DNA of 64,000 bases. Origin: Nereocystis luetkeana. Its lineage: Eukaryota; Sar; Phaeophyceae; Laminariales; Laminariaceae. Shown here in pieces: positions 3,200-52,460 of the stretch. A program made the position numbers and the translations under genes. Every line of letters begins with the position of its first letter. The first letter of the stretch is position 1. The notes below the pieces were generated by a model. That model had not been told where the DNA came from. It ran no database searches and saw only the letters and a program-made list of their open reading frames with translations. The stretch lies in assembly GCA_031213475.1 (NCBI GenBank), contig JARUPZ010000004.1, positions 3,435,501 through 3,499,500 of the forward strand, given 5' to 3'.

Positions 3200-4191
3200 T
3201 GTGGTCGTCAGGGGACATCCGGGGGACATCCCCGGGTTTCCTGTAGAGATAGGGATATTGGGGTATAACGGCGTCCTTGTTGCTGGGAAACTTTACCCAC
3301 AGCAGTCACTCTTTTCTTTTGTAGTCTTTCTTTCTTCCACTATAAAACTAAGGCATCTCTTACTTCGCGTCGACTAGGGTGGCTGACTTGCTCGAGTGGT
3401 ACAGCTATATGCTGGCCTGGAGCTGAGCTTGGTCATCCGAGGCGTACCATAATACTGCAGTATTCGAGGGTAGGCCGGTTGTCGCACGGGAAATTTCGAG
3501 TTTGAGGGTCGGGTGTGGATATCGTTCGGTCAGGTATCGATCATGTGGGCATATTGACGTGTTGGGTATTGGTACTCGGATATATTCTTCGGGTCTTCTT
3601 CGGGTTTAGAGTCTATCATCGGGTTGGGAATCTTCTACTTCGGTCAGGTGGTGTTCAAGGTTTTGGGTGGAATTCGGGTGGGGATATCTACGCTTCAAGT
3701 GGAGTTAGCTTTGCTTGCTGCTACAAATTACAAAATATACGTATATCTACAGCAAAGGTCGGTTGTGCCAATATCGCCTTCTTCGGGAGCTTTGGCTGCA
3801 CTCATTCGGGTACGAGGCGTCTGTCATCGGGATGAGTGGTGAACGGTCAGGGCGATCGACAGTGGGAGTGTAGCAGCAGCCGATTGGAGCAACAGCTTGG
3901 CTGGAGCATATGTTTGGATACGAGTCGAGTACACCAATCACCAAATTTTGTCTACGAGTACGAGTACGAGGTACGAATACAACAATATTTGTCAACCAAA
4001 TATATCTTTGAGAGACACTGGTGGGTGAAAAATTATCGACAGGATCTTTTCGGTGAGAGGCGAGGAACACTAAAAGTACCTTAGCCCTGATACTCTTAAA
4101 TTCGGATTCCTAGCTTAGCGGACAAGGATAAGGAATGCTGGCAAGGTTCGGTCGGTCGGTCTATTGGTCCAGACCAAGGTCGAGGGGCTGG
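3200..4191 (+). mobile_element. LTR-1 copy C: 5' LTR plus leader, truncated
   Basis: The LTR spans 3,200-3,451. It is followed by the 12-bp palindrome ATACTGCAGTAT and the leader, which runs into the first codons of the gag-like ORF (GGTCGGTCGGTC, TCCAGACCAAGGTCGAGGGGCTGG at about 4,145-4,191). There it is cut by the LTR2 copy beginning at 4,192. No 3' half follows, so this copy is dead. Confidence 0.75.
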
Positions 4192-4756
4192 AGTTACAGC
4201 AGGGTACAGCTCTTAGACTCTAAATAGGACCCGCGCTCGTTAGATCTCTGAGGCTGACTGACCTGCTGGGTGGGAGTTCGAGAAGTGCCTTCGTGCAGTA
4301 ATGATCGGGTCACGCAGCGAGTGAATCGATGCAATGCAGCAGTTGCAAGCAGCTAGAACGAGCAATGGAACAGGCACCACAGGCACGATGACGGGCACGA
4401 CGGGCAACGCAAGGCCCAAGGGGCTGGGGATCGATAGGACAGGTATCATAGATCACTTGGCTTTGACTTTCTTTCTTTCTTCGCTTGGTGTCTAGTAAAC
4501 ACCGGGCTGTTTCATGACCTCGTTACTGGTTCTTTACACGGAACTGAAGGCGTTCCCACACCGGGAATCCTCCCTGCCTCTATAAAATCCGCCCAAAGGA
4601 TGCTATCCAAAGCTTGCCCTCTTCTGCCCATCGAATAGACCCGACGCGTGAGACATATCAGGACAGTTGTCTCGCGCCTTATTATCCTCCCCACAGCGCT
4701 GGTCACGACAGTCGCAGAGCTATGAACCTCCTACCCTGGCGCCACTCGCTGTAACA
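4192..4756 (+). repeat. LTR2, copy a
   Basis: A 565-bp LTR of a second family, beginning (A)GTTACAG and ending CTGTAACA, so the termini are short inverted repeats. It aligns with the minus-strand copy at 27,832-28,394 (termini TGTTACAG/CTGTAACA) and the nested copies at 37.7-38.8 kb. A TATAAAAT box lies in the second half. It interrupts LTR-1 copy C inside the start of its gag-like ORF, so it is younger than that copy. Confidence 0.7.
4581..4588 (+). promoter_or_regulatory. TATA box of LTR2 copy a
   Basis: TATAAAAT sits about 170 bases before the LTR end and is kept in the other copies (TATAAAA at 27,998-28,006 on the minus strand, TATAAAG at 38,649-38,655). Its position matches the U3 promoter of an LTR retrotransposon. 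Transcription start is not shown. Confidence 0.5.
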
Positions 4757-5470
4757 CCCCCCCTGCCCGACGCATGACCATCGTCGGCACAAAGCGAGCA
4801 TCCCAGTACTTGCCCGGTGACAGCGCGTGCGGCTTTCTACCTCGGTCGGCCCAACGTCTGTAGCACCCCCCCAGCGGGCATTACGATCATAAATCGCTGC
4901 AGAGAGTGCACCTTCCATCTCCGCACCTCGCCGTCGGCTCGATAATGCAGCTCCTCTCCTTCCTCAGTGTTGCCTCCAGGCGGTGGTGAGAAGAGCAGCG
5001 ATCCTGACCTTCGTCCAGATCTTCTTCTGTATTCCTCTTCCCATCCAACGCCGCCGGCCCGATGTTGCAGCGCCTCTCCTTTCCGCGGTATTGCCCTTCG
5101 ATGGTGGTAAGAAGAGCAGCGGACCTGACCTTCGTCCAGATGTTCTTCAGCATTCCTCCGTCCATCGCCGTCGGACCAGGTGCAGCGCCCCTTTTTCCCG
5201 TGGTGCTGGCCTTGGACGGTGTTGAGAAGAGCGGCAGACGTGACCTTCGTCCAGATGTTCTTCAGCATTCCTCCGTCCATCGCCGTCGGCCTGATGTTGC
5301 AGCGCCTCTCCTTCCCACGGTGACCGTAGACCCTGTTGAGAAGGGCGGCGGATCTGACCCCCGTACATTCTTCACGACTTGTAACTTCCAGCGCCCCATC
5401 TGTATAACACGCTCGGAGCATGTACTCACCTGTGAAAAATATGTTTTTCTTCCTGCCTCACCTGCATCTG
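4757..5470 (+). mobile_element. LTR2 internal leader with tandem repeats of about 117 bp
   Basis: Sequence directly after LTR2 copy a, shared at its start with 27,540-27,831 (minus). From about 4,920 it contains four to five imperfect units of about 117 bp, with markers like GAAGAGCRGCGGACCTGACC near 4,987, 5,110, 5,226 and 5,339. The inverted-arm counterpart has a single unit, so the array expanded on this arm. Open frames on both strands arise because the unit length is a multiple of three. No pol domain follows. Confidence 0.6.
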
Positions 5471-5857
5471 AGTGAGGTGGGGGCTCACATGCATCTGAGG
5501 CCCTCTCGAAGGCCTCCATCTTTGTTTTAACAATAATCTACACGTTCACTGTTTCGGCCCCGGCATAGATTCCACTGTAAGCTACTATCGTCCTACCGTA
5601 CCACCTCACTTTTCACTCAAATTTTACAGTGTTCTGCCAGTCCATACTCGTGAGGCTATACGTGGCCACACTACCCAAACACCGCGGTGATTGTCCACGT
5701 TGCCCCTCTATATATCTGCGCGCTTGATAGTCTAACCTGTAGTAACGGCGCACCGCTTGGTACCCAAATATCCTTGCGTACTGGACTGTCGATATTGCAA
5801 AACTTCATGTTCCTTTGTAAGACGTTTCAATCTGCGCAGTGGACTATGTCGACGGTG
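5471..5857. other. No gene seen
   Basis: Unique-looking sequence between the LTR2 leader and a solo LTR-1. Short open frames only, without recognisable domains. Confidence 0.45.
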
Positions 5858-6110
5858 TGTGGTCGTCAGGGGACATCCGGGGGACATCCCTGGGTTTCCT
5901 ATAGAGATATGGATCTTGGCGTGTAACGGATGTTGCGTCCTTGTTGCTGGGAAACGTTGCCCAGTGCTTCTCTCTCGTGTCTCTGTGTGTGGTCTTCTAA
6001 GAAACTTGCGCATCTCTTACTTCGCGTCGACAAGGGTGGCTGACTCGCTCGAGTGGTACTGCTATATGCTGGCTTTGAGCTGTGAGCTTGGTCATCTGAG
6101 GCGTACCATA
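5858..6110 (+). repeat. Solo LTR-1 (copy F)
   Basis: A 253-bp LTR-1 with no internal region on either side. The flanking tetranucleotides are GGTG (left) and GATG (right). This is close to a 4-bp target duplication with one mismatch, as expected after LTR-LTR recombination of an older insertion. Confidence 0.75.
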
Positions 6111-6782
6111 GATGCCACCATTCACTTACCTTCGTCAGACATTTCTCACTGTACCTTCAACAACAGTTTATGCGTAGATTAGCATCCATCTGCCACTCCG
6201 AAGTATATCCGGATGTCTCTTAGTCTCTTTGTACGGATTATCACGTTCTGACTTCTTGATGAACTTCGATCGCGCGTAATACGGAGTTTACATTATGTAT
6301 GCCTACCTTTTGGCGATTGTCTCAAACTTCTCTGCATTGAGAGTAGGTACTTCTTGCGAATGTGGAGGTGGTTTTATGTATGGGTTCGTCACGGACGTGC
6401 TGTAGGAAGTTCGTGTTGAGTCCTCTTTCTACTCCCTCCTCCTGATGTAGAGTTCTACTTGGTATCCTTCGAGTGTTTCGACTTTCTGGCACTAGCCCGA
6501 GTTATTATCCGCTCCCGAGTGACTACATGGTTTGAAGGTACTGGCGTTTACGCCACTTCGACTTACGGGCACTTCTAAATTGTTTCCAAGTATTGTATCT
6601 GTTGAGATATTGAGCTAATGTGAAGGGCTCAGCAACTTCTGGTGCTACTGTGGGATGGCTCACTAGCCAGGGTAACTATTTTATTCCGAGTAAGTAAGTC
6701 GTTTGCAGGTACTGACGTTTACGCCACTTCGACTTACGGGCACTTCTAAATTGCTCCCAAGTATTGTATCTGTTGAGATATT
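6111..6782. repeat. Inverted-repeat left-arm segment with 171-bp tandem units
   Basis: The part from about 6,370 matches the reverse complement of 27,300-27,540. Two tandem units of about 171 bp start at 6,537 and 6,708 (GGTACTGGCGTTTACGCC and GGTACTGACGTTTACGCC). Retrotransposon B interrupts the second unit at TATT (6,779-6,782), and the unit resumes at 10,724. No gene is visible. Confidence 0.7.
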
Positions 6783-7092
6783 TAAGGTACGCCTCGGATA
6801 ACCAAGCTCAACTCGAGGCCAGCATATAGCTGTGCCACTCAAGCGAGTCAGCCACCCTAGTCCACGCGAAGTTAGAGATGCATACGTTTATTACTGTAGA
6901 AGACCACACAGAGACAAGAGAGGGAGACACACAAGAAAGGGACACACACAAGAAAAAGAAACACGCAAGAAAGACACACACAAGAAAGACGCTGCTGTGG
7001 GCAAAGCTTCCCAGCAACAAGGACGCAACATCCGTTGTACCCCAAGATCCATGTATCTATAGCAAACCCGGGGATGTCCCCTGACGACCACA
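6783..7092 (-). repeat. LTR-1, 3' LTR of copy B
   Basis: A 310-bp LTR, longer than the others because of expanded ACACA/AGAAA-rich sequence in the middle (about 6,900-6,995). It ends ACCTTA instead of the usual ACCATA. Confidence 0.75.
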
Positions 7093-7937
7093 GCCCCCCC
7101 CCAGAGAACCTATAGGCCCAAAGGGACTTGGGGAAAACGATAAAAAACTGAAGACAAGGACAGCCGGGGACCCTAAACAAAACACAACTCGAATAAGAAG
7201 AACGAAGGAATCACCAGTCAACATCGTCCGTTTCGTCAAAACCATTACCATAAAGCATTCCTCGACAATACAGTGGTATCCAACACAACCACTTGATTTG
7301 ATATAAGCTCAGACGAGCAGCACTGCCAATTTGAGCGAACTGCATACCAAATTTCATGTGGAAATCTACACAGCAATATTTATCAACGTCGTCTCATATC
7401 TCCTCATTTACCGTCGCACCAGGTGTTATTTTTCGGACAGACCGGTAAGAAATATACCAGTTATCACACGCGTATACACACATCCGTACCCATACAAGAA
7501 GCAGTACACACAAAGAAAGCAATCCACCTGTTTTTTCCTGTTGCGGCCTAGAGAGCAGCCAGTAGAGGCCCCAGGCTCAGGGATACATTTTTCGACTGCA
7601 GGCAAGCAAACACGACCGAACACTCTGCAGTTGATTCACCCATAACCTTTATCCCAGCACAATAACCGATTTGATCGTCGACATACACTTCTTCGCTTAC
7701 ATGATGAGTTTTGCCCTCGCGTTCTTTGCCCTCAAAACCACCCGTGTTATTAGTACATTTCTATGACCCGACCCGAATTTGAACAACATGGTCCACGAGC
7801 TCGACCCCGGGCGATGCCACAACAACGTCCGGTTCAGTATCAATCATCATCAGCAAAAGAGTGGATTTAGAGGACGTAGCTTCCTTTTCAGGAGCGTCCC
7901 GTAACGAGTCAGAACCTTCAACAACTGGTATATCAAT

Positions 7938-28905: not shown

Positions 28906-29235
28906 TTAGTTGTACAGAGGGTTTACCCTTGGTCGCACGGCCCGACTCCTTCGGAAGGATGGGATGGCCGAGGTGTTTCGAGATAATTGAATGGACAGAA
29001 GAAGTGTTACTTTGCGCAAGAAAATCCGTTCGTACAGTACCACGAGTGACTTTCGAATCACAACTTCAAACAGCAGGTGCGACAATAAGCTGGTCAAGAA
29101 CAGGCTGAGGTACATGACGGGGCGGTGATCGTCGTCCTTGACTGGTAAAATTTTGAGAGCAATCATGCTCACAGGGTACCCCATATGCATAGTCACGAAT
29201 CCAACGACCAGAGCTTCGACAAATAATCGAATCAT
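28906..29235 (-). CDS. Small membrane protein of large-DNA-virus type (integrated, possibly degenerate)
   Basis: A 109-codon frame from ATG 29,233-29,235. Residues 6-28 form a first membrane segment (VEALVVGFVTMHMGYPVSMI). A second hydrophobic block contains MYLSLFLTSLLSHLLFE. The pattern of a VG-V-T-G--VS helix followed by an SLFLTG--HLL-E helix is the one I know from short conserved membrane proteins of nucleocytoplasmic large DNA viruses, including those of algae. The usual Trp-Tyr-Cys end of that family is missing and the C-terminus is basic and unrelated, so it may be frameshifted. The Fanzor fragment at 29,440 is its neighbour. Confirmation needs a database search. Confidence 0.5.
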   Translation of the reverse strand: MIRLFVEALVVGFVTMHMGYPVSMIALKILPVKDDDHRPVMYLSLFLTSLLSHLLFEVVIRKSLVVLYERIFLRKVTLLLSIQLSRNTSAIPSFRRSRAVRPRVNPLYN

Positions 29236-29370
29236 CTTTTACTTTTTACTCAACATAAAATTGGGGCTGGCTACACACACAGTCTCGACGTAGTCGACAG
29301 GGCTGGCCAAAACCCTCTTCAAGCACGACCTTCCGCTCAGCTCGTCAAGTGGCGATGCTCATCCGTCTCC

Positions 29371-29795
29371 TTGCTCGTCGCACACGTCTTCCCCGAGGAA
29401 GGGCGCGTCAGCTTGCCATTGCACCTATTGTCATCAAGTGAAAAGCATCTCGGAAGCTTAGCCCACACGTTCTCGATGACCTTCAGGTCGAGGAAAAACG
29501 TACAGACAATCAAGATTCTGGGGTGCTGCATCAAGGACGGTCTCATGTTCAAGCGATCATGCGGATCAGAAAAGCTCAAGGGTTTCGAAGACTGGGCTTC
29601 GTACGAAGGTGAAATCATCATTCAGAAGGATCGGTGTGGCAACTTCAACAATCTCAAGTTATCCCCGAACGTGTCGAGCACACGGAAGACCCGAGGGTTG
29701 TCGCCCTCGACCCTGTATGGACTTTTAACACCACCGTTGACGCCAGAGGAAACGTGACCGAGTTCGTCCCTGGAGATGTTGGAAGAATCTGTTGA
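29371..29795 (+). pseudogene. Fanzor (eukaryotic TnpB-like RNA-guided nuclease) fragment, N-terminal to RuvC-I
   Basis: Two frames must be joined. The first (29,440 to about 29,660) reads FSMTFRSRKNVQTIKI and later KDRCGNF, matching the wedge/REC-side β-strand and DRCG-type motifs of Fanzor/TnpB proteins. The second (about 29,645-29,795) reads VIPERVEHTEDPRVVALDP and then GNVTEFVPGDVGRI, the RuvC-I motif with its catalytic Asp at codon 29,709-29,711. The usual DPG glycine is Val here. A TGA at 29,793 stops it where repeat R4 begins. RuvC-II, RuvC-III and the zinc ribbon are absent, so it is not functional. The known activity of intact relatives is RNA-guided DNA cleavage. Confidence 0.6.
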
Positions 29796-29982
29796 TAAGT
29801 CCCAGGGGAAGAAAGATGATGCTTGGTTTTAGTAATTTTCTCTCGGCAGAGTAGATACAGATGGAAGTAGTCATGTCGGTATCACGTACACCCACAGAAG
29901 CAACTACCAAGTAAATAATACTATGTCAATATACCGAATAGTCATAAAACCGTCAAAATACTGAATAAGCATATTCGAACAA
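29790..29982 (+). repeat. R4 repeat, copy 1
   Basis: About 192 bp starting TGTTGATAAGTCCCAGG and ending CATATTCGAAC. A direct copy is at 35,843-36,034. It starts inside the Fanzor GRI codons, after AGAATC. No coding potential. The sequence AGAATC also follows R4 at the second locus. Confidence 0.65.
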
Positions 29983-29999
29983 ACTCCCTGCTTTTCCAG

Positions 30000-30189
30000 C
30001 AAAACAGCAATGACAATTCAAGATAACCGAACAAAACTCATCTCCATGATCAAAAACCAACTAAAATATTTCTAGAGAAAACCTGTACCTCACAAGCAAA
30101 AACCTCTCCCTCCCGTATGAACCTATTCCAGATCTCCTTTGCAACTGCAGTAGTTCAATGCCGCAAAAACAAAAACTAAAGCGATAGAT
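30000..30189. other. No gene seen
   Basis: A/T-rich short unique stretch between R4 and the reversed R7 repeat. Confidence 0.4.
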
Positions 30190-32425
30190 CTATTAATTAT
30201 ATATAGGCAGCGTGATGCCCAATTTATAACTTCATAATAGTATTGCCTCTTTCATACCAAATTGTTCAACAAATATATATATACCGCACGTACAAACAAC
30301 TTTTTTTAGCTCCTTTCATGCACCAACGTAAAATAAAATGTATCTCTCACATACCTAGTACTCCGAACTCACCTTTTGTACGTTGCTTTCGTGCAAAGTT
30401 ACAAGATCTTGTCCTTTGCGACGTCATCTTCGAAACACGCACGTGTTCCTGCCCTCCTGCGCTTTGAACATGTGGTCCTCGTCATCTACCGCCGCTTCAC
30501 CCGACGTTCATCGAAATAGGAGTCTTTCGAGCTACCGAGGGGTTCACGCAATCCTCTCTGTCGTCTTTTGTACACTAAATACGCCGAGCTGTGGGCTACT
30601 ACTGCAGACAACAAAGCAGTACTTTCCTGTATAACCTCTGCAACAACACCCACCCCATTTCCAAATCATCCTCCCTATCTCCTTCTACCGCAGCACACTG
30701 CTGTACACACACACAATCACGCACGCTTGACACGAGAAGGTATCTGTGTGTCCCGCCGCGTTGTTGGTCGAGATCGTAAAGGTTCGAAAACCCGCCGCAA
30801 TTTTTATTTTTTAACCAACCGACTTCACCTCCCGTATAAAGATGAGAAGCGACGCTCGCTACACCGCGTTGTTGGTGGCCCGTGGCGATGATGATGATGA
30901 GTTTCGGCGCGAAGACCTTGCCTCGAGCAAAGACAACTCAACTGCATACAGCTGCAGCAGAAGAGAGAAGCCTGCCTGCAGCAACTGTGGTGAGACAACA
31001 CAAACTGCCTACACGGTGCGAAAGACGTTGGCTCTCCTAGCAAGAGCGGATGTAAGACGCATATGCGCGGTTCGTTTATCACCGTCCGTCGGTCCACAGG
31101 TGCTCGTGCCGGCTTCGTTTGGTTCCGGTCGATTTTTATCACTCGGCTTGACGCTGCTGCTGCTGCTCCTCCTTCTGTTGTTTCGCCATCGTATGATGCT
31201 GTTGTTGGCACCCTGCTCCACGATTACTTTAATATCAGTAAGAATCACGATGATCCAAACAGCTTTTCACGACGTCAAAACTCGCCCTGTATCACCTGTG
31301 CAGCAGCCGGTTTGATGGTTTTTGGGGGTTGTACAGACATTGCTCGCGGCTCGAAAGCGTTCGATTTCTCAGCATTATACTCGATACCCCAAGGATACTC
31401 GGAGTATCGAGTAATTGTCGTACTCCGAGTATTAGAGTACTGGTGGCTTAAATACTCGGAGTACTTGCAGTATGAGCAGTACTGAAGGGCCAAAACCTCC
31501 GAGTAGTATGAGCAGCAATTATGCTCGAGTACAAGCAGTACCTGGAATACAAACATGTAAATTACTCGGAGTACTCCGAGTATTTTTTTATTTTATTTAT
31601 CTTTGCTCATCCCATTTATTGTCTTCGCACATCTTCTTCTCTCTCTCCTTCCAACTCGTAACTCAGATCCGGGGTCACATAGCAGGCTCTTCTACCCCCT
31701 TCCCGTTACGGTACGCGCCTTCATTTTTATCGCGAGAAGATTTTAGCCTTTTCTTCCCTCATCGACTCGCATCGAATTGTGCCTACCCACGCTTCAAGGT
31801 GCTCTCAACAATTGAATTCTTTTGATTTTTATTTTTGCGAATACAGTCAAATGTCCGACCAACCTGGGGCTCGAACCCAGGACTCAAACACAAGTAGAAT
31901 TCGAGGTTAACCACTTGAACCACCGGGGCGACCGGCTCTCGCGAGTATTAAACCCAGGAATACTTCATCATCCGAGTAAAATACTCCGAGTAATACTCCA
32001 ACTCGGAGTACCCTGTGAAACCCTGAAATATACGAGTATTACTCGTACCTTGGAATATATGAAACCCTAAAATACTCCGAGTATTGAAGCTTTTGCAGTA
32101 TGAAATGCCCAAGTACTCGGAGAACTTAAAGTAGGAGCAGTACAAGATCCCCAAATTCTTCAAGTACAACGAGTATTCCGGAGTATTGAACCCCAAAATA
32201 CTCTGAGTACAGCAGTATTTTAGAGTATCGAACCCCGAAATACTCCGAGTACAAGCGGCATTCAGAGTGACCACACATGATATACTCCGAGTACGAGCAG
32301 TATCACGAAATGTCGAGCCCTGAAATACTCCGAGTACACGAAGTACCTGAAGAAATGTATCTCCGATACTCGTTATTTTACTCCAAGGTACTCGGAGCAT
32401 GTATCTGCACCTTCCCATATTGATA
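30190..32425 (-). repeat. R7 repeat, reversed copy
   Basis: Reverse complement of 15,410-15,583 plus 19,716-21,358. It keeps both ORF-like frames (30,825-31,211 and 31,009-31,248) and the GTACTCGGAGTA minisatellite. It lacks retrotransposon A, so it preserves the pre-insertion site. A SINE interrupts it at 31,585-31,941. Confidence 0.8.
31585..31941 (-). mobile_element. tRNA-derived SINE, copy 2 with 8-bp target duplication
   Basis: Same head (A-box and B-box in complement, GGGCTCGAACCC at about 31,867) and body as copy 1, on the minus strand, with an A-rich end at about 31,585. The flanks CGAGTATT at 31,577-31,584 and 31,942-31,949 are identical, so this is a clean target-primed insertion. 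It sits in the minisatellite of R7. Confidence 0.8.
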
Positions 32426-32699
32426 TATTGCGAGCCTCGTCTGGTTTTCGCTCAGGACTACCTAATCCGGCACACTTTTCTGTTGATGACCACCATAATT
32501 ACAGCCGTTCTTCGTGCATTTACATTTTGCGTTACCATTGCTGCTGCCGTCTCCATCATCCTCGTGTTTGTAATTGAGTAAGTTCGACATCGTTTTCATT
32601 TCATTGTCCTACCAGCACGGTCGTCTGATCTCTGCTCTGACACCTCGATTTAACACACCTCATCCTCTCGATAAAAGTGACAATATTGACGACCGTTCG
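32426..32699. other. No gene seen
   Basis: Short unique stretch. A frame at 32,399-32,581 has no recognisable feature. Confidence 0.4.
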
Positions 32700-33215
32700 T
32701 TCGGATATTGCGGCGTCCGATCCTGCGGGCACTCCTTGCACCCGGGGCAGTTGAATATTTAGTACTACTCACACTCGCACTTACTCGCAACATTCGGGCA
32801 GTATTTCGAGGTTTGAAGTTAAGTACCGTTTACACCATCAGTCACTCGGCCGTAAGCACCCTAATAGACAAATTAGCTCGATACGGAAGCAATCGATACT
32901 CCGAGTGTGGTCCCTCTGCTGTGCGTTTGTCGTATTACCGGCAGATTTTATTGCATCGTGCTGCTGCAACCAACAACTAATAAAGTTGCAGTGTGAGATT
33001 CCAGAGAGGGAGCAAGCACATAAATAAATATTGCACAATTCATAATATCAACGCATATTGATTGAGGTGCTACATAAAGTGATTTACAAAGTGGTTTTCA
33101 TTAATTTAAAGCACGGGGCCACAATTAATGTCCAACCTATGTTATCTACAGGAATCTGGCTCGACCGCCGTGGGGGCGGGAGGGCCTTTTATTCCCTAGT
33201 AAATGATATAGCGCT
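32700..33215. repeat. Large inverted repeat, outermost right-arm segment
   Basis: Reverse-complement partner of 1,677-2,190, including CTGCGGGCACTCCTTGC, CGATACGGAAGCAATCGATAC and GGCCTTTTATTCCCTAGTA. Confidence 0.75.
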
Positions 33216-33456
33216 CGGGAGGAACTTCGTTCCCCCGGGACACGTCTCCCTGTGCCAACTACTCCCGCCATAAACTATACCTGGTATTTCCCTATAGAGT
33301 TTGCTCAGCGCTTACTATTCCCGATACAATATCCGTTTGTGTCAGAACCAAAAAAAAACTCCCTGTTCCTGGTTCAGTTCATTATCTATCCTTGTTCCCT
33401 GAAATAATTCACCTTTTTCCTACGTGTGTACCGAGAGATTTTTATCACCCTCAATC

Positions 33457-33732
33457 ATGAACAATCATATACCCACAATAATTGATCTCCCAGCTCGCGA
33501 ACAACATTTCCATCTTCCATCAAGTTCGGAGAAAAAAACAATGGTGATAGAACAACCAATTATCATGAATATGCATACCCTCCCTGGTTCTGTCACCACT
33601 AGACAGAACAAAGAAAAATTCCTGCAAGACCCAATAAAGTCAGTATCCACCAACACCGCATCTCCGGAACACCCCTCCTCAAGATGCGCTCCCATCACGT
33701 ACTCTCCATTCGCCAATCCGACAAATCAGTAA
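33457..33732 (+). CDS. Short ORF of unknown function
   Basis: A 92-codon frame from ATG (MNNHIPTIIDLPAREQHF) to a stop at 33,732. No domain, signal or membrane segment is recognisable. It lies in otherwise unique sequence between the end of the inverted repeat and a tandem duplication. It could be fortuitous. Confidence 0.2.
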   Translation: MNNHIPTIIDLPAREQHFHLPSSSEKKTMVIEQPIIMNMHTLPGSVTTRQNKEKFLQDPIKSVSTNTASPEHPSSRCAPITYSPFANPTNQ

Positions 33733-33851
33733 ATATCAGTTCCACCAGTCACCTGCTAGTCCTGTCTATATCTCTATAAGACTGTTTGATTTGAACATGA
33801 AATTAGATTGGAAAACTCCATGCAGAACAAGAAGCTACGTATACCGTCATG

Positions 33852-34360
33852 TAGACGATATGATACCTGTTAAATAGGCTTCCGTACCATTTACGATTTT
33901 CCCGGGATAAAAAGTATACTCCATACGATCCGATCATTCAGAAACCCGTATCCAGTGACGTAAAATCTACCATTTACCCGGGAAGAACGATGACTACCAT
34001 ATAATTTTATACCTAACACGTCGCAAACGGTTTTTATCTTATACGACTTCACCGGAACGAATCTACACCCTGTCGAAAATGACACATCTCCATTTGACGA
34101 ACCTACAGTAGTAGACGATACTATACATTCTTCATACCATTCACGACTCTTCCGGGATACAAAATATATTCCATACCATTCAGATCTCCGTAACCAGTGA
34201 CAAACGATATAATTACCCCTTACCCAGGAAGACCGATAACCGCCATATAATTTAGTATTCCCTTACACGTCGCAAACGTTATGTATCAAATACGACTTTC
34301 TTCACCCGGAACGAATCCAAACCCAGTCGAAAATGATATATCTTCATTTGTACGATCAAA
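33852..34360. repeat. Tandem duplication of about 258 bp, two units
   Basis: Units begin at 33,852 (GTAGACGATATGATAC) and 34,111 (GTAGACGATACTATAC). They share TTCCGGGATA, CACGTCGCAAACG, CGGAACGAATC and GTCGAAAATGA blocks. Divergence of roughly a fifth suggests an old duplication. No gene. Confidence 0.75.
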
Positions 34361-35394
34361 AAGGTATTTCGACCGACAGGTGTATCCAATCACAAGAGAA
34401 AACTACTCCTACGAACACCCACAAGAGAGACTTAATGCATAACCTCCCGCCCGCGAAGTAGCCGCATCACTAAAAAGGCTCCAGCTGACGAGATACCTGT
34501 TTGTCCATTGCACGACCTTCCCGCAACATAAATACACCCTTGACACCGACTCCCTCCACACCTTTGAAATATGCGATATTTTGTATGGTGCTTGTCCAGT
34601 TTCTCTTCTGGGCCTGCCAACATCGAACACGGAGCGCAACGAAGCGCTGTGGATGTACCCGGCAGTAATATTTCGAACCGAAACACAAAAATACGGTTTT
34701 TCAACTACCAGGTGGGGGACGGGGGTATTCACGTATCATCCAGGAATAGAAGCTCAAACGACACTTGCGTACGTATCATCCAGTATGTACCTCATCGCAC
34801 ATCCCATACGTACTCGTACGTACTACGAATCAATTTACGAATTTCTACCCTCGTCGTAAAAATAAACAAACCTCACAATATAACAGTGGATCAAAGACCC
34901 ACCATTACGAGTGCAAACCTCGCCCCGCGTGTTGCTGGACCCACAAAGGGATCCAGCGAACGATCCAACCACGCTTGCCCCATCCACGACCCCCGCTGCT
35001 ACTGCTGCTGCTGAGCTTCCGCGGCTGCTGCTGCTCTGTCCCTGACCTCCCGCTGCTGCTGTTCTGTTGCTGCTGCTGTCGTCGTGTGCACGCGACTTCT
35101 GTGCCACGCGACTTGTTACCGATGCAGACGTGCCCTCCTTCGGTACTAGTACTGCTGCAGCAGCACCCGATTCTCCCCACGTCCGCTCCCTCGACCACTA
35201 CCGCACCGTAGTCGAGTACGCGCATCTCGTACGCGGCTTTCCCGACCATGCCACATGGCTGGCCGGGTGCACACGGCCTGGCTCACCGTGCGATTTCACG
35301 CGAAAATGTGCAGATTTGTCTCCCATCCCCACGGCTCCTAGCCCCCCCACAATCTCCCTGAGTGGGGTGCGCACGTAAAATATCGCGCGACTGG
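34361..35394. other. CTG/CAG-rich stretch, no confident gene
   Basis: Contains CTGCTGCTG runs (about 34,995-35,170). Frames in several registers encode Ser, Gln or Leu runs and are by-products of the triplets. Confidence 0.45.
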
Positions 35395-35811
35395 TTATCC
35401 TCCATGCCACTCCCCACGGAGGCGCCTACGGTTATGCTTCCACCGCAGGGCTTTTTCTTCTCCAGTTAGCACGCCGTCGTGTCTCCGGCATACTCCGAGA
35501 GCATCAACACAGCTTCCGCACCCTTTGCCACCGAGGCGGCCATCTTCCGCGGAAACGCGTTCCCGCTCCCGGCTCCCGATACCAACGTCGGAGCGTTCCG
35601 ACGCTGGCGTTGAAGCATATCTCCCTGCTCCAACTGCGGTAGATAGCTGCTGCTGTCTACCGGACCCCATCTGCGCAATCATCTCGAGGATCTCGGTGTG
35701 ATTCGACCGTCAACGCTCCTCTGCGTCTGCGGTCGCACGCTGTAGCCCCTCGAGGGCGAGGCCCTGCTCTAACACCATCGTCCGAAGACCTTCTACTTCG
35801 TCACCCATGAG
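35395..35811 (-). pseudogene. Coiled-coil ORF remnant, possibly retroelement gag
   Basis: Starting at ATG 35,809-35,811, the frame reads MGDEVEGLRTMVLEQGLALE and continues as a heptad-like charged helix, with a TGA at about 35,710. It then resumes as NHTEILEMIAQMGSGRQQQL. An N-terminal coiled coil followed by Ser/Arg-rich sequence is common in retroelement structural proteins, but nothing specific identifies it. Repeat R4 lies just upstream of the start. Confidence 0.3.
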
Positions 35812-35842
35812 CCTAGGTTCTCAACGTTGCGAACTCTAGAGT

Positions 35843-36034
35843 GTTGATAAATCCCAGGCGAAGAAAGATGGCGATCCAGGTTTTAGTGTTATTCTCCCGG
35901 CAGAGTAGATACAGATGGAAGTGGTCATGTGGGTATCACGTACACCCACAGAAGCAACCACCAAGTAATTCATACTAAGTCAGTATACCGAATAGTCATG
36001 AAACCCTCAAAATACTGAACAAGCATATTCGAAC
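35843..36034 (+). repeat. R4 repeat, copy 2
   Basis: Direct copy of 29,790-29,982, about 85-90% similar by eye. It is followed directly by AGAATCTACCGTCTCTGT, which reads RIYRLC, the Fanzor motif expected after GRI in the first locus. Confidence 0.65.
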
Positions 36035-36321
36035 AGAATCTACCGTCTCTGTCATCACATGGTACATCATCATACCCGAACGAATCGACAAGGCAAACGT
36101 CGAGACATCCACGGAACCACGGGTCATCGGCATAGACCCTGGACTTCGGACGGCTTTCACATGTTCTTCGAGCTCGGGCGACGTTCGGGAGCTTGGAACT
36201 GACACCCGGCACCGCGCCAAGAGGGAACACTTCAAGAAGGATTCCATTGCCAAGAAGATGAAGGATACAACGTGTTCCAGGAGAAAAACAAAGTTAAGGA
36301 AAGCTTGGTACCGCTGTTAAG
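36030..36321 (+). pseudogene. Second Fanzor fragment with RuvC-I motif
   Basis: The frame from about 36,037 reads WYIIIPERIDKANVETS, then EPRVIGIDPGLRTAFTC, an intact RuvC-I motif with catalytic Asp and the DPG glycine. GDVRELG follows, then a basic helix ending TKLRKAWYR, as in the linker between RuvC-I and RuvC-II of TnpB/Fanzor proteins. A TAA ends it at 36,321. In an overlapping frame the first bases read RIYRLCHHM, so two Fanzor pieces appear joined here. No RuvC-II, RuvC-III or zinc ribbon. It converges with the ORF at 36,344. Confidence 0.6.
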
Positions 36322-36343: not shown

Positions 36344-36883
36344 CTATCGCTCAAAGCTTACCTTGGTGACAACCGCCTCGAAGTGGCACCCCAATGTCCA
36401 CAAAATGCGCCCGTTCTCCATCAAGGGGGTAGTTAGGCCGTCAGCATCCATCAGTTCGTACTTGTCGCCGTCCACCATCTGCTGGATGACCTGCACATTG
36501 GTTTTGTACCGCTCGGCCAAGAGACGAACGGCGCGGAAATCCAGGATTTTGCCGTCGGTAACCTCCTGGACCCATGAGGCCGAGTCGGGGAGTTTTTCCT
36601 CCTTGACCGCAATCACGCCCGAGAAGAGGGCGCCAGACGGGTTGGAGAACATGGCCTCTACGATCCGTTGACGGCCACGTTGAAGCAGCTGTATCAGACG
36701 CCCATCTTTTTTGCCACCCCACAGGACCTTCTGAACCTGTGCCGGGTGAAACCCCCCTGCCACCAGGCAGCACGTCATGACCGAACGATCGCCGCAGTAC
36801 CCGCAGCCGAAATTCTTCAGCCACCACAAGCCCAGTTCGCGAAGAGCGCTCGTACGTTTCTCCTTTAAAAGAGTAAGCACCAT
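36344..36883 (-). CDS. Intact 179-residue ORF, unknown; weak OTU-like C-terminus
   Basis: An uninterrupted frame from ATG 36,881-36,883 to TAG 36,344-36,346, notable among broken elements. The N-terminal third has a Cys-rich stretch (FGCGYCGDRSVMTCC) that could bind metal. The middle is charged. The C-terminus runs LLAERYKTNVQVIQQM, then ILWTLGCHFEAVV, which loosely recalls the final β-strands and catalytic His of OTU-type cysteine proteases, but no matching D-G-x-C motif is seen. It ends 23 bases from the second Fanzor fragment, convergently. It could be another viral or element gene. Confidence 0.45.
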   Translation of the reverse strand: MVLTLLKEKRTSALRELGLWWLKNFGCGYCGDRSVMTCCLVAGGFHPAQVQKVLWGGKKDGRLIQLLQRGRQRIVEAMFSNPSGALFSGVIAVKEEKLPDSASWVQEVTDGKILDFRAVRLLAERYKTNVQVIQQMVDGDKYELMDADGLTTPLMENGRILWTLGCHFEAVVTKVSFER

Positions 36884-37224
36884 GTTTCACCCTTGCATCG
36901 CGCGAAGGGAGGAGGCATGGTGATTATAGTGTTAGTAGTGAGTGGTGTCTCGATTTTTATCTCGAATATGGAGGTGGCATTAGGGTGGGTGGGGGCATGA
37001 TGACATCGTGTAAAGTAGTGTGTGACACGCCTTTTATATCGATTTTCACCTCGATTTTCATCTCGATGGTTTCATGTCGATTTTCGTCTCGATTTTGTCA
37101 TCTCGATTTTGATGAAAGCGTCAAATCCTCGGTACATTGGTGCCGATTTATAATCCACAATAGAGTTTGGCAGGCCCTTCCGCACTACCTGGTATTTTCG
37201 AGTAAAACTTTTGATTAGTACGTA
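36884..37224. other. No gene seen; TCGATTTTC-type short repeats
   Basis: Contains a short reiteration of TCGATTTTCATCTCGATTTT near 37,035-37,110. No coding frame of interest. Confidence 0.45.
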
Positions 37225-48400: not shown

Positions 48401-51400
48401 CGAGATTGGACGGCCGGTTCTTCATCAAATTGTGTGTCCTCCATCATTACGCACCTTGCGCATAACAGTATCATCAGCGCGTGACTGATGCAAAGTATAA
48501 CGCACAGACAGAGTCGCCGAGATCTCTGTGCCAAAACGGAGTAAAGCGCCTCTACACGGATTATGCGAAACACATACGTGCATAGCGCGAGGCTTTCTGC
48601 CGCTAGCTAGACAAGGTACTCGCCAACTACGTCAAACTTTGTGGCGTAAAGAGAGACTTTTCGTTGGCTGTTTAAAGACTAAGAATCACTTCACAACAGC
48701 ACATACTTCGAAGTATGACATGCGCATCGCTGACTCGTGGATTATATACAGAGACGCGCAATCTGTGTACAACATACAGTAGGTGCAGTCGTACCGAGCA
48801 GACCTGTGCCAAAAGGTCGGCCAGCGCAACATCTACCAGTATTAAATACCGTCAGCAATGCATGGTTATGCGCGTTAAAATCGATTGACCCGGAACGCGA
48901 CGAAACAGTCGCAGTCGGCCTCTAGAAGGGCCCTTCGGCCTAACAGATCACCTGCGCGTTCATGGTTAGGCAGTCGGCGCCAAGCAGAGGAAGAAAGTTG
49001 TCACAAGCCGTGGCATGCATAAATGCAGACAGCGTACTCCCTGCGTTTTCCGGTCCCTCTGGCATGACTCGGCGTGCTCCTCTGTCTCGGTGGATGTGGC
49101 CCGCTTCAAAAATTTCCTTTTTCATCTCGTTGATCATGGCCTGTATGGTACGAGGCGGGGAAGAGGGGGGGGGGATTTTTTTTGTAGAGATAAGTATATT
49201 AGATGGCCTAAGCTAGCTAGGGTCAGAGCAAATACACGACGTAGTGGGCCTATTCAAGCGTGTTTTGAAGCATCAAGAGAAGTGCTGACGAACCGAGCTG
49301 CGCCAAAACATATGTACCGACCGAGAGGATCTGACGCCGGTTGCGACAAACGTACTACATACAAGTGGGCATAATTTAACTTCCGGGGCATTCGAGAGTA
49401 ACGTTACAAATTACTAACTATTAAAAGACGAAGAGGCAAAGCAACCCAACGACCGCCGCGTACGTGGACTCTGTTTTACGATCGGAGGTGCGGCAGGAAG
49501 CTCATCGACGTCTTCGAAGCAACATCAGCGAGTGCACTAAACCACCCTCAGCGAACTCACCTGTTCGACTTCGACAAACTTGAGGGTAGGGCGGAATATG
49601 TTGATAATGATGAGAGGCGAAGGGTCTGCCAACAAACGGGAGCGGCAATACTCAGCAGCGCTTGTGTGATCGAGCTCGATGGCTGTCCTAACCAATCCTG
49701 TCGAAGATGATTCGGGACGTCGCAGGGGACGAAAGTACGAGACGGACGAAGCCATGCTCAACGGCTCGATGCTGGACGAGTTTGAGCCGAACTTAGTGTT
49801 TTGCACCCGACCAGGTTGTGCCTTGCTGACTTCCGCTGCAACGTCACCGGCCTGCGAATCTGCCATGTGTCTTGCCAGCACGTCGACCAGGTGACCCTGA
49901 ATGTGTTGCCACAAACCCACGACAAGCGATTCCTTGTAGGGTGCGTCTGCCTCGAATACAGGTGCTCCCGGATCACTTTCGCGGAGATCTCGCAATCGGG
50001 CAGCATGCAGAAGTCGGACGAGACGCATGAGATTCGCCAGAACGCTAGTGAAGGAGTCGAAGACAAGACTCAGGTACTGCGTCAGGTTTTGCACGTGCGT
50101 CCCCAACCCCTCGTCCTTTCTCCTGCCTTTAGAGGAAGCGCCACGAGACTTCACGCGAACCTCCTCGTGCTTGTCTACACACGTGCGCATGTGCGTGGCG
50201 CTCAGAGTCAAGACCTCGTCCGGCAACCTCTCCAACAGATACCGCTCAACGTCGTCTAGACACCGCAAACGGCGCACAGCTTCAACCAAAAGGCGTAAAT
50301 ACACGTTGAATTCCCGCGATGGGTCTTCCAGCGCCTGCTCCTCGTCATCTCCGACGTCAGTCACATCCATTGGAATGCCTGCCCACATAATATCTGCAGC
50401 CTCATCTACCCCCGCGCTCGATACAGAGGCTGCATCCGAAGAAAGGCCACCACCCGCGCCTCCAGGGGTACCCTGTCCGCGAGACAACGCGCTAGCCGTG
50501 GGATCGTCCGCTAGCGCTCCACCTGCTCCACCTCGTTCCCTTCTCCTTATATTCTTGGGCGCTACCCGCCCCTTGTCCCCGGTATTGGATTGGACGGTCG
50601 CCGCGCGCAGGAATAAAATGTCCGCGATTTCTTCAACCAAGGTGTCCAGTATCCTCCCCTTTTGAACCAGCATCTCATCCCGTACACTCGCTACAGCGGG
50701 GACGTCGACCAACTCGGCGCTGAAAATGTTGAGCAGGGATTCGTTGAGCAAGTCGACAGCTCCAACAAACCTCTTTTGGCGTACTAGCCGCTCAAACTTG
50801 ACTGGGGCATCCTGTTGCAACAGCGGCAACGCGCGGGGGAAGGCGAGCTAAGGGGGGATATATTCCATCGTCCGCCAAACAAGTGACCTAAGGGTACCGT
50901 ACTCCTGCTGTTAAGCGCGCATGTCGAAATGCGGCATCCCGGTTCCACTGCCTTTGTGGAATATGTGGCAAACAGGCAGGCATTTTCGCGGCATGGTCCA
51001 CATAACACGCTATCAAAAAGCAACGTAAGCTGAAACAAGCGTCCTCGCCGTGCCTTGCATTCGTAGACGTACCCTTCTTGGCAATAAAGTGGACGTTACC
51101 GTCACACCGCAACAATATTTGATCAGGTAGACACATCTCTGGCCTGCTGATCTACGAGCTCAAGTGAAATTGAGCGAGAGCGCTACACACTCAACATGCA
51201 CATGGGACATGAACAACAAAAACCTCTGAATACCACCACACGCTATGACTCGCTGAGCGTAAGCAGTCTAGAAGAAGAAAACGAGAAAAAATTGAAGCTC
51301 ATCGATTTTTGACCTAAATCACTCTGTCCACTACTCCACCGTGTTGTTGCCCTCAAACACATATACTACCGGGCTTGACTTAGCTCCGCGAAGAATACCG

Positions 51401-52236
51401 ACTGATGCTTGATTCCAGGACGGGTTTTAACCACAGCAACCTGTGCTGTGTACAATTCTACCTGATTTTTTATATACCGTTTCCTGGCAGACAAATAGGT
51501 TGCAACCGACGTACTCAAGTCAACTACCATGCACGTTGGATGCGTACTCTCGTGAGAAAAACGGCACGCAGGTATCGAAACATTCTCCAACGCATATGCC
51601 AAGACGATAGCGGCATCGTGAAGTGAATGAACACAACGCCTTCCCGACGCCACGGGTGCCCATCCGTCGAAACCTTTCGCGTTGCTGCAGAACCAAAGAC
51701 AGCACAGAAGAACTCCATCGCAACAATGACCAGAGTGTTTTTTCAACGATATCCACTAAGCCACTCGACAATTATAGGCGAAGCCTCAACCATGATGATG
51801 AGAGCATCGATTAGCGTGAAGTTAAGCGGGGCTGGTAGATCCGTAGGAACGCACCTTGATCATGTCAAGAGCGTTCAATAGCCGCAGCACGAGAGAGTAC
51901 TGCAATTTTCGTTGCCATAGCTCCCGTACGTCGGTCTGGCTCACGCCCGTTTGGAGGAGTTGCTTGCACTCCCGCAGCTGCTCTCGAAGCGTGCCGACAT
52001 TAGATCGGGTCTGGTTGTAATGCCTCGCCACCCCGCCCATAGCTTGGACTGAGCTGTTCAAACTGCCATGGTGTTCCACAGTGATACGTTCGACCACATC
52101 GCTGCACACTTGAAGTTGTCGCTGAATGTTCTTGTGTAGCGGGTTACCTGCCAGCTGCTCGAACTCGGGGCTTTCCTCGTTGTCGTTACCTTGGTCAAGG
52201 CTGACACTCAGAATCTCGATCACCTGGTTGAATGGC
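45495..52236 (-). CDS. SEC8: Exocyst complex component Sec8 (EXOC4), nine exons, 5' end missing
   Basis: Sec8 is a subunit of the octameric exocyst, which tethers secretory vesicles to the plasma membrane before SNARE fusion. Coding exons in transcript order: 52,236-51,855; 50,847-49,561; 49,140-48,952; 48,288-48,076; 47,876-47,797; 47,664-47,570; 47,464-47,220; 46,683-46,387; 46,151-45,495. All eight introns are GT-AG, phases agree at every junction, and the total is 1,147 codons. Matches to Sec8 include the N-terminal coiled-coil region (LRECKQLLQTGVSQTDVRELW, then LRLLNALDMIK), RKRFVGAVDLLNESL-type sequence, IINIFRPTLKFVEVEQ, DDSLLCLRLEV, DPCVVTLNRCI and FEWARQYVALI near the end. The human protein is 974 residues, so this one carries extra low-complexity linkers. 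The first exon could start after the acceptor CAG at 52,239-52,237, and the initiator exon was not found. Confidence 0.85.
46766..46842. repeat. 15-bp tandem repeat, five units, in a Sec8 intron
   Basis: Units of ATGGAAACATTGTTA with one or two changes each, inside the 536-bp intron between the seventh and eighth exons. Confidence 0.85.
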
Positions 52237-52238
52237 CT

Positions 52239-52460
52239 GGCAGATGGGGGGGGGGGGGGGGGGGGGCGTACTCATTTGTTGCTTGCCTTAGTCATTTGAC
52301 CAATGACCACGCATCCCTTTCGAGACGGAGCTACAGTGGGGGGGGGGGGGGGGTGTACTCGATAGGAGAGACGTTCTCGATCTCATGCATGGCCGTAGTC
52401 GTATGACCATAACGAACATATACCCTTGCATCCCTACAACGCCGGGGGGGCAAGTAATTA
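52239..52460. repeat. Poly-G-containing degenerate units upstream of Sec8
   Basis: A G21 run (52,246-52,266) and a G16 run (52,338-52,353) are each followed by GTACTC. A G7 run lies at about 52,444. GCATCCC-type blocks precede the second and third. The spacing suggests imperfect units of about 90-100 bp. On the Sec8 strand the first run is a C-tract that could serve as the pyrimidine tract of the CAG acceptor at 52,239-52,237. Confidence 0.55.

Follow-up and report, generated by a model that had tools for sequence, protein, structure and literature searches.

Decayed Fanzor-like fragments divided by a Copia-type retrotransposon in the genome of the brown alga Nereocystis luetkeana

Introduction

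Fanzors are eukaryotic counterparts of TnpB, an RNA-guided nuclease of bacteria. The family, with its classes Fanzor1 and Fanzor2, was reportedly described by Bao and Jurka in 2013 and by Saito et al. and Yoon et al. in 2023. Two features of its sequences are used here: the tripeptide DPG, which a passage of Yoon et al. 2023 (PMC10711439) treats as a fingerprint shared by Fanzors with the nearest TnpBs; and a C-terminal motif, D-X(125,275)-[TS][TS]-X-X-[C4 zinc finger]-X(5,50)-RD, taken from a portion of PMC3627910. Fanzor has been reported in brown-algal viruses and in integrated copies, according to parts of PMC3627910 and PMC13236599, and the main text of a paper on Ectocarpus transposons (PMC12477816) mentions neither Fanzor nor TnpB. 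Here we describe two Fanzor-like fragments, A and B, in a 64-kb stretch of the genome of the brown alga Nereocystis luetkeana (C4:3435501-3499500, in a 465-Mb assembly of 1987 contigs). This whole stretch is referred to below as the window.

Both fragments are comparable to Fanzor-like proteins encoded on viral contigs. B matches them in its RuvC-I region, including DPG, and A matches them in an F(R/K)SRK run before RuvC-I and in an RIxRLC run after it, the latter being read across the empty site of a retrotransposon insertion. The locus differs from a Fanzor in that only the middle of the protein is represented, twice, while RuvC-II, RuvC-III, the zinc ribbon, the transposon ends and the guide-RNA end are not present; A and B could each belong to Fanzor1 or Fanzor2. 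We consider it highly probable that the locus is a fossil, fused Fanzor pair that was split by a Copia-type insertion.

Results

Two degraded Fanzor-like fragments

All peptides that an earlier note on this DNA had quoted as signs of Fanzor are present in the reading frames of the window at the places it gave. In fragment A, FSMTFRSRK and KDRCGNF belong to one plus-strand open reading frame (ORF; 29227-29754) and VVALDP to an ORF in a different plus frame (29613-29792); fragment A therefore carries a frameshift. Its RuvC-I motif is degenerate (ALDPVWT), with the glycine gone. In fragment B, VIGIDPGLRT and KLRKAWYR lie within a single plus-strand ORF (35979-36317), of which the first part, 35979-36035, is retrotransposon long terminal repeat (LTR) and not Fanzor, and the RuvC-I aspartate is kept in its DPG context.

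The assignment to the family comes mainly from a profile search. A degenerate RuvC-I pattern returned 27 Fanzor-like stretches or reading frames from viral contigs, and 17 of these were aligned into a hidden Markov model (HMM), the ten left out seeming to be near-copies of kept rows over the stretch shown. The rows are thus Fanzor-like proteins of viral contigs and not named Fanzor references. When the 1761 reading pieces of the window (each of at least 25 residues) were scanned, B ranked first (41.1 bits, E 9.8e-12), the VVALDP frame of A second (12.0 bits, E 0.0064) and the FRSRK frame of A third (9.3 bits, E 0.043), with the fourth piece reaching only E 0.56. The top scores of 20 shuffled windows, made by permuting two-base units, spanned 8.7 to 1.9 bits, below all three Fanzor pieces, and a 25-row profile returned the identical three pieces at the top.

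Public libraries add to this for B, which matches NCBIfam guided_TnpB at E 7.4e-6 (25.5 bits, where the full-protein cut-off is 100) and Pfam OrfB_IS605 at E 0.0081, under the family cut-off. Its best phage matches are TnpB-type proteins of Staphylococcus phages (33%, E 0.1). As for the profile proteins themselves, four of the 17 were checked with Pfam, and Cas12f1-like_TNB was over cut-off in all four and HTH_OrfB_IS605 in three; one viral-contig protein matched the TnpB-like protein L79 (PDB 9b0l) at E 1.7e-23. The 17-row profile found 18 PDB sequences, with L79 first (2e-57), followed by TnpB, Cas12-type and designed nucleases, none of them named Fanzor. L79, which we take to be a Fanzor2, is the nearest solved relative of the profile.

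In terms of sequence, both stretches look TnpB/Fanzor-derived, and the earlier description of them as broken members of the family stands. In the profile check that had been proposed for them, B is significant and A reaches 27.8 bits when its flanks are joined (see below); neither frame of A is matched in the family libraries. A profile scan of both strands of the 64-kb window found no RuvC-II, RuvC-III or zinc-ribbon part in A or B, and the C-terminal motif is absent from the locus, B ending at 36317; hence A and B are degraded fragments and not a working member. They read as dead, decayed Fanzor relics, and neither is predicted to be able to make a nuclease, since the catalytic parts are gone and A is frameshifted. 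No 3' end of a Fanzor element survives within the window, and the guide-RNA (omega RNA) end is therefore untraceable from it. The repeats that flank the locus as inverted arms (28.2-28.4 kb and 37.7-38.4 kb) were also considered as the possible ends of a transposon carrying Fanzor; that they have further copies in the window in both orientations speaks against this.

An LTR element inside fragment A

The earlier note counted A and B as two separate loci. Instead, one locus is divided by a single 6.2-kb LTR insertion, with GAATC directly outside both LTRs, which start with TG and end with CA (Table 1). The frame of A continues past the right-hand duplication as YRLCHHM, where many viral proteins read RIxRLC. 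When the flanks were joined at the empty site, A scored 27.8 bits versus 11.2 alone, and none of 200 window stretches joined at random reached that score (best, 18.3 bits). The duplication on both sides, the continuity of the frame and the raised score of the join argue that the retrotransposon landed inside fragment A; the idea of two separate loci was rejected on the duplication and the frame continuity. Fragment B starts roughly where A's short continuation stops and repeats RuvC-I, and YRLCHHM and the overlapping start of B are read in different frames. This arrangement suggests that two Fanzor remnants had been fused at the locus before the insertion.

Table 1. Features of the divided locus, with the partial Fanzor-like locus on C31
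Feature	Position	Strand	Remarks
Fanzor fragment A, part 1 (pre-RuvC, FSMTFRSRKN..QTIKI)	29440..29600	+	ORF frame 29227-29754; HMM positions 204-248
Fanzor fragment A, part 2, degenerate RuvC-I (RVVALDPVWTFNT) through GDVGRI	29655..29789	+	frame differs from part 1; HMM positions 277-316
Target-site duplication GAATC, left	29785..29789	+	
Whole LTR retrotransposon	29790-36035	-	sense strand minus
LTR, 192 bp (3' LTR if sense is minus)	29790..29981	-	172/192 aligned bases identical to other LTR
Internal region, Copia-type retrotransposon	29982..35841	-	main pieces ~79-92% to six siblings
Secondary (nested) insertion(s)	30196..33199		not at that position in 6/6 siblings
gag ORF, N-terminal 99 residues, in-frame stop	35524..35820	-	81% identical to gag of sibling L116
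LTR, 194 bp (5' LTR if sense is minus)	35842..36035	-	direct repeat pair
Target-site duplication GAATC, right	36036..36040	+	
Continuation of A beyond insertion (YRLCHHM)	36041..36061	+	frame of A part 2; flank join; overlaps first bases of B
Fanzor fragment B: WYIIIPER, RuvC-I VIGIDPGLRT, to KLRKAWYR, truncated there	36057..36317	+	HMM positions 264-347
N-terminal Fanzor-like half, three exon-like blocks	C31:271.8-276.2 kb (locus L103 ~3297-7720)		middle block single copy

The two LTRs differ by a Kimura two-parameter (K2P) distance of 0.113, so the insertion is not recent. Relatives of the element came to light in a genome search with the ORF of B, whose first 19 residues are LTR: there were 149 matches, most of which covered only about residues 2-30; many formed pairs ~3.1-3.5 kb apart. 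Six sibling elements were fetched, chosen because their matches were paired. The LTR ends TGTTGA..TTCGAACA are common to the window element and all six; exact 5-bp duplications are found in five, and that of the sixth, L112, contains a single mismatch. In sibling L114, where additional LTR pieces are present, we chose which ends to pair. In all six cases the alignment to the window element skips from internal position ~186-214 to ~3219-3227, so that ~30196-33199, missing at that place in every sibling, is ascribed to nested insertions. Parts of this segment are like dispersed repeats, one of which is also found inside sibling L111 and beside L115.

The class of the element was assigned from its LTRs and gag. 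Sibling L116 has a 429-residue gag ORF that matches Pfam Retrotran_gag_2 at 4.6e-7, over cut-off, with a zinc knuckle just under cut-off (0.00088). Together with the minus-strand gag remnant in the window, this makes the family one of Copia type, with its sense strand minus here. The element is like Copia-type retrotransposons, specifically their short gag-bearing derivatives, in its TG..CA LTR pair, its 5-bp duplication and the Retrotran_gag_2 gag of the sibling; it differs in that the window copy retains only the first 99 residues of gag and contains ~3 kb of foreign DNA.

Within the inserted DNA, a 43-nt sequence rich in ACTCGGAGTA-like units occurs six times at 31423-32338, and its final four copies follow one another at a spacing of 42-43 nt. 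DNA resembling this segment recurs near 19.7-20.2 kb and 15.5 kb of the window.

Traces elsewhere in the genome

From the two fragments the earlier note had expected an active family elsewhere in the genome and full-length copies of it. Genome searches, all read without splicing, gave no intact Fanzor copy and do not support such an active family, though a full copy interrupted by introns may have escaped them. The VVALDP frame of A matched the window only; B without its LTR part matched itself, with the next two matches at E 8.78 and 9.56; and the intact RuvC-I pattern [VI]-[AG]-x-D-P-G-x-R-T had one genome match, B, with none for the reversed control pattern. Apart from the window, these and related searches yielded partial traces on C23 and C31. 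Sensitivity was limited for viral-protein queries, as L024 and L070 missed the window's own A and B. L070 had one match, at E 0.875 on C27. L024 had four weak matches. The profile supports one of them, C31:273701-273901 (35.3 bits; E 5.7e-10, calculated for a nominal 2000 sequences); the others, on C7, C29 and C14, did not reach E 1 with it. Matches to the ORF of B on C14 and C17 extend past the LTR part.

The family PF07282 has one match in the genome, at C23:10037975-10038154 on the minus strand (E 2.9e-4, over cut-off). This piece (loci L001 and L102) reads CSKCH..WNRDVKACRNI, a zinc ribbon with an in-frame stop, and has a glycine-rich microsatellite upstream. It scores only 5.5 bits with the 25-row profile, and its context reads like a Fanzor C-terminus broken by the microsatellite.

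The C31 locus has the appearance of the N-terminal half of a Fanzor-like protein. Its helix-turn-helix (HTH) piece scores 4-5 bits by profile and matches Pfam HTH_OrfB_IS605 at E 0.022, under cut-off; the middle block ends in KALKYRTRKD and is single copy in the genome; and the last block ends in RFYLCIPES and scores 6.9-10.6 bits. Neither the profile nor a motif scan of the plus strand found RuvC-I or a zinc ribbon over the following ~19.5 kb, as far as C31:295.7 kb; the motif scan gave two D(P/T)G strings, which lack a Fanzor context and are put down to chance. The C31 half may be a relic or a reduced host gene.

Neighbouring reading frames

Two minus-strand ORFs adjoin the fragments. The one at 28978-29232, just upstream of A, has 85 residues and is membrane-like, with two long helices predicted (mean predicted local distance difference test score, pLDDT, 76.3). 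Its Pfam match, to CENP-M, is sub-threshold (E 0.0048); its best fold match is EsV-1-184 of a phaeovirus (E 1.0), all fold matches being non-significant; and it has no relatives among viral contigs. The ORF at 36347-36886, of 180 residues, is open and ends next to B. It is single copy (the next match, at E 0.106, has stops), searches of family libraries, the PDB, phages and viral contigs gave nothing notable for it, and its predicted fold (mean pLDDT 35.4) was not used. A giant-virus membrane-family motif found no match. The capsid family PF04451 was not found in the genome, in a search that matched no control and is uninformative. A viral origin of the Fanzor DNA was thus tried by ORF, capsid, motif and fold searches, which do not show it. 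Farther away, exons of a host gene for the exocyst subunit Sec8 lie at 49540-52271 on the minus strand (Pfam Sec8_N 1.8e-10, Sec8_C 9e-6).

Discussion

Evidence for a divided Fanzor relic includes the score of B and the frame and score of A across the empty site, and several points weigh against it. The pieces of A are weak individually, NCBIfam and Pfam give neither of its Fanzor frames any match, and the third frame over A has a sub-threshold Pfam match to an unrelated family, DUF5580 (E 0.0065). A phmmer search of PDB chains, made with B and the VVALDP frame of A only, returned nothing relevant. The 200 random joins test the join and not the choice of profile, and the classing of the profile proteins as Fanzor rather than phage TnpB is suggested by the DPG motif and the nearest solved relative. 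As to the fusion, it is read from the presence of RuvC-I in both fragments within a few hundred joined bases, and the DNA similarity of A and B is no better than chance, its score being equalled in 15 of 300 shuffles. Given that absence of similarity, A and B are probably diverged paralogues, and a recent tandem duplication is unsupported.

The same comparison bears on the possibility that A and B belong to one Fanzor gene in which the RuvC-I region was duplicated internally before an LTR element split it. Both carry a similar IPER..(E/D)PRV run before RuvC-I in the same orientation, but they differ at most positions beyond the motif as well as lacking DNA similarity, and we regard this history as unlikely. 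A functioning, spliced Fanzor gene that has A and B among its exons and the LTR element in an intron is scarcely credible. The apparent exon blocks of the C31 half make a spliced Fanzor conceivable in this genome; however, the insertion interrupts a continuous reading frame, A is frameshifted, B repeats RuvC-I rather than extending A, and nothing else in the window is recognised by the profile as part of a Fanzor.

Another scenario is that the Fanzor pieces arrived with an integrated giant virus, of which the two minus-strand neighbours would be further relics. The published Fanzors of brown-algal viruses provide a precedent, a phaeovirus protein heads the fold matches of the 85-residue ORF, if without significance, and the 180-residue ORF is single copy. 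Yet neither ORF has relatives on viral contigs, the only family match of the smaller one (CENP-M) is non-viral and the larger has none, the membrane-family motif is unmatched, and the capsid search carries no information. We hold this origin to be possible but doubtful. A more speculative connection is that C31 is a domesticated, nuclease-free Fanzor, a host gene in which the half that binds nucleic acid was retained and the nuclease lost, and that the window fragments are its dead cousins; this we judge very unlikely.

We therefore return to the fused and divided relic. Direct observations are the Fanzor-like similarity of both pieces, the LTR pair, the duplication, the in-frame continuity of A and the sibling elements; from these we infer an order of events. 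An older rearrangement would have fused two diverged Fanzor genes, with copy A, up to ~30 residues beyond its RuvC-I, running into copy B in a different frame, B beginning just before its own RuvC-I. Later, a Copia-type LTR retrotransposon in minus orientation would have entered A, duplicating GAATC and shifting the last residues of A, and B with them, ~6.2 kb away. Further DNA would then have inserted into the LTR element.

The locus is an ordinary decayed remnant of a known family, but its insertion history is unusually clear. Its description corrects a reading in which one locus was counted twice and an active family was deduced, and it changes nothing that is known of Fanzor function. What it adds to a large eukaryotic genome is one datable Fanzor fossil, for which the divergence of the LTR pair sets a minimum relative age.

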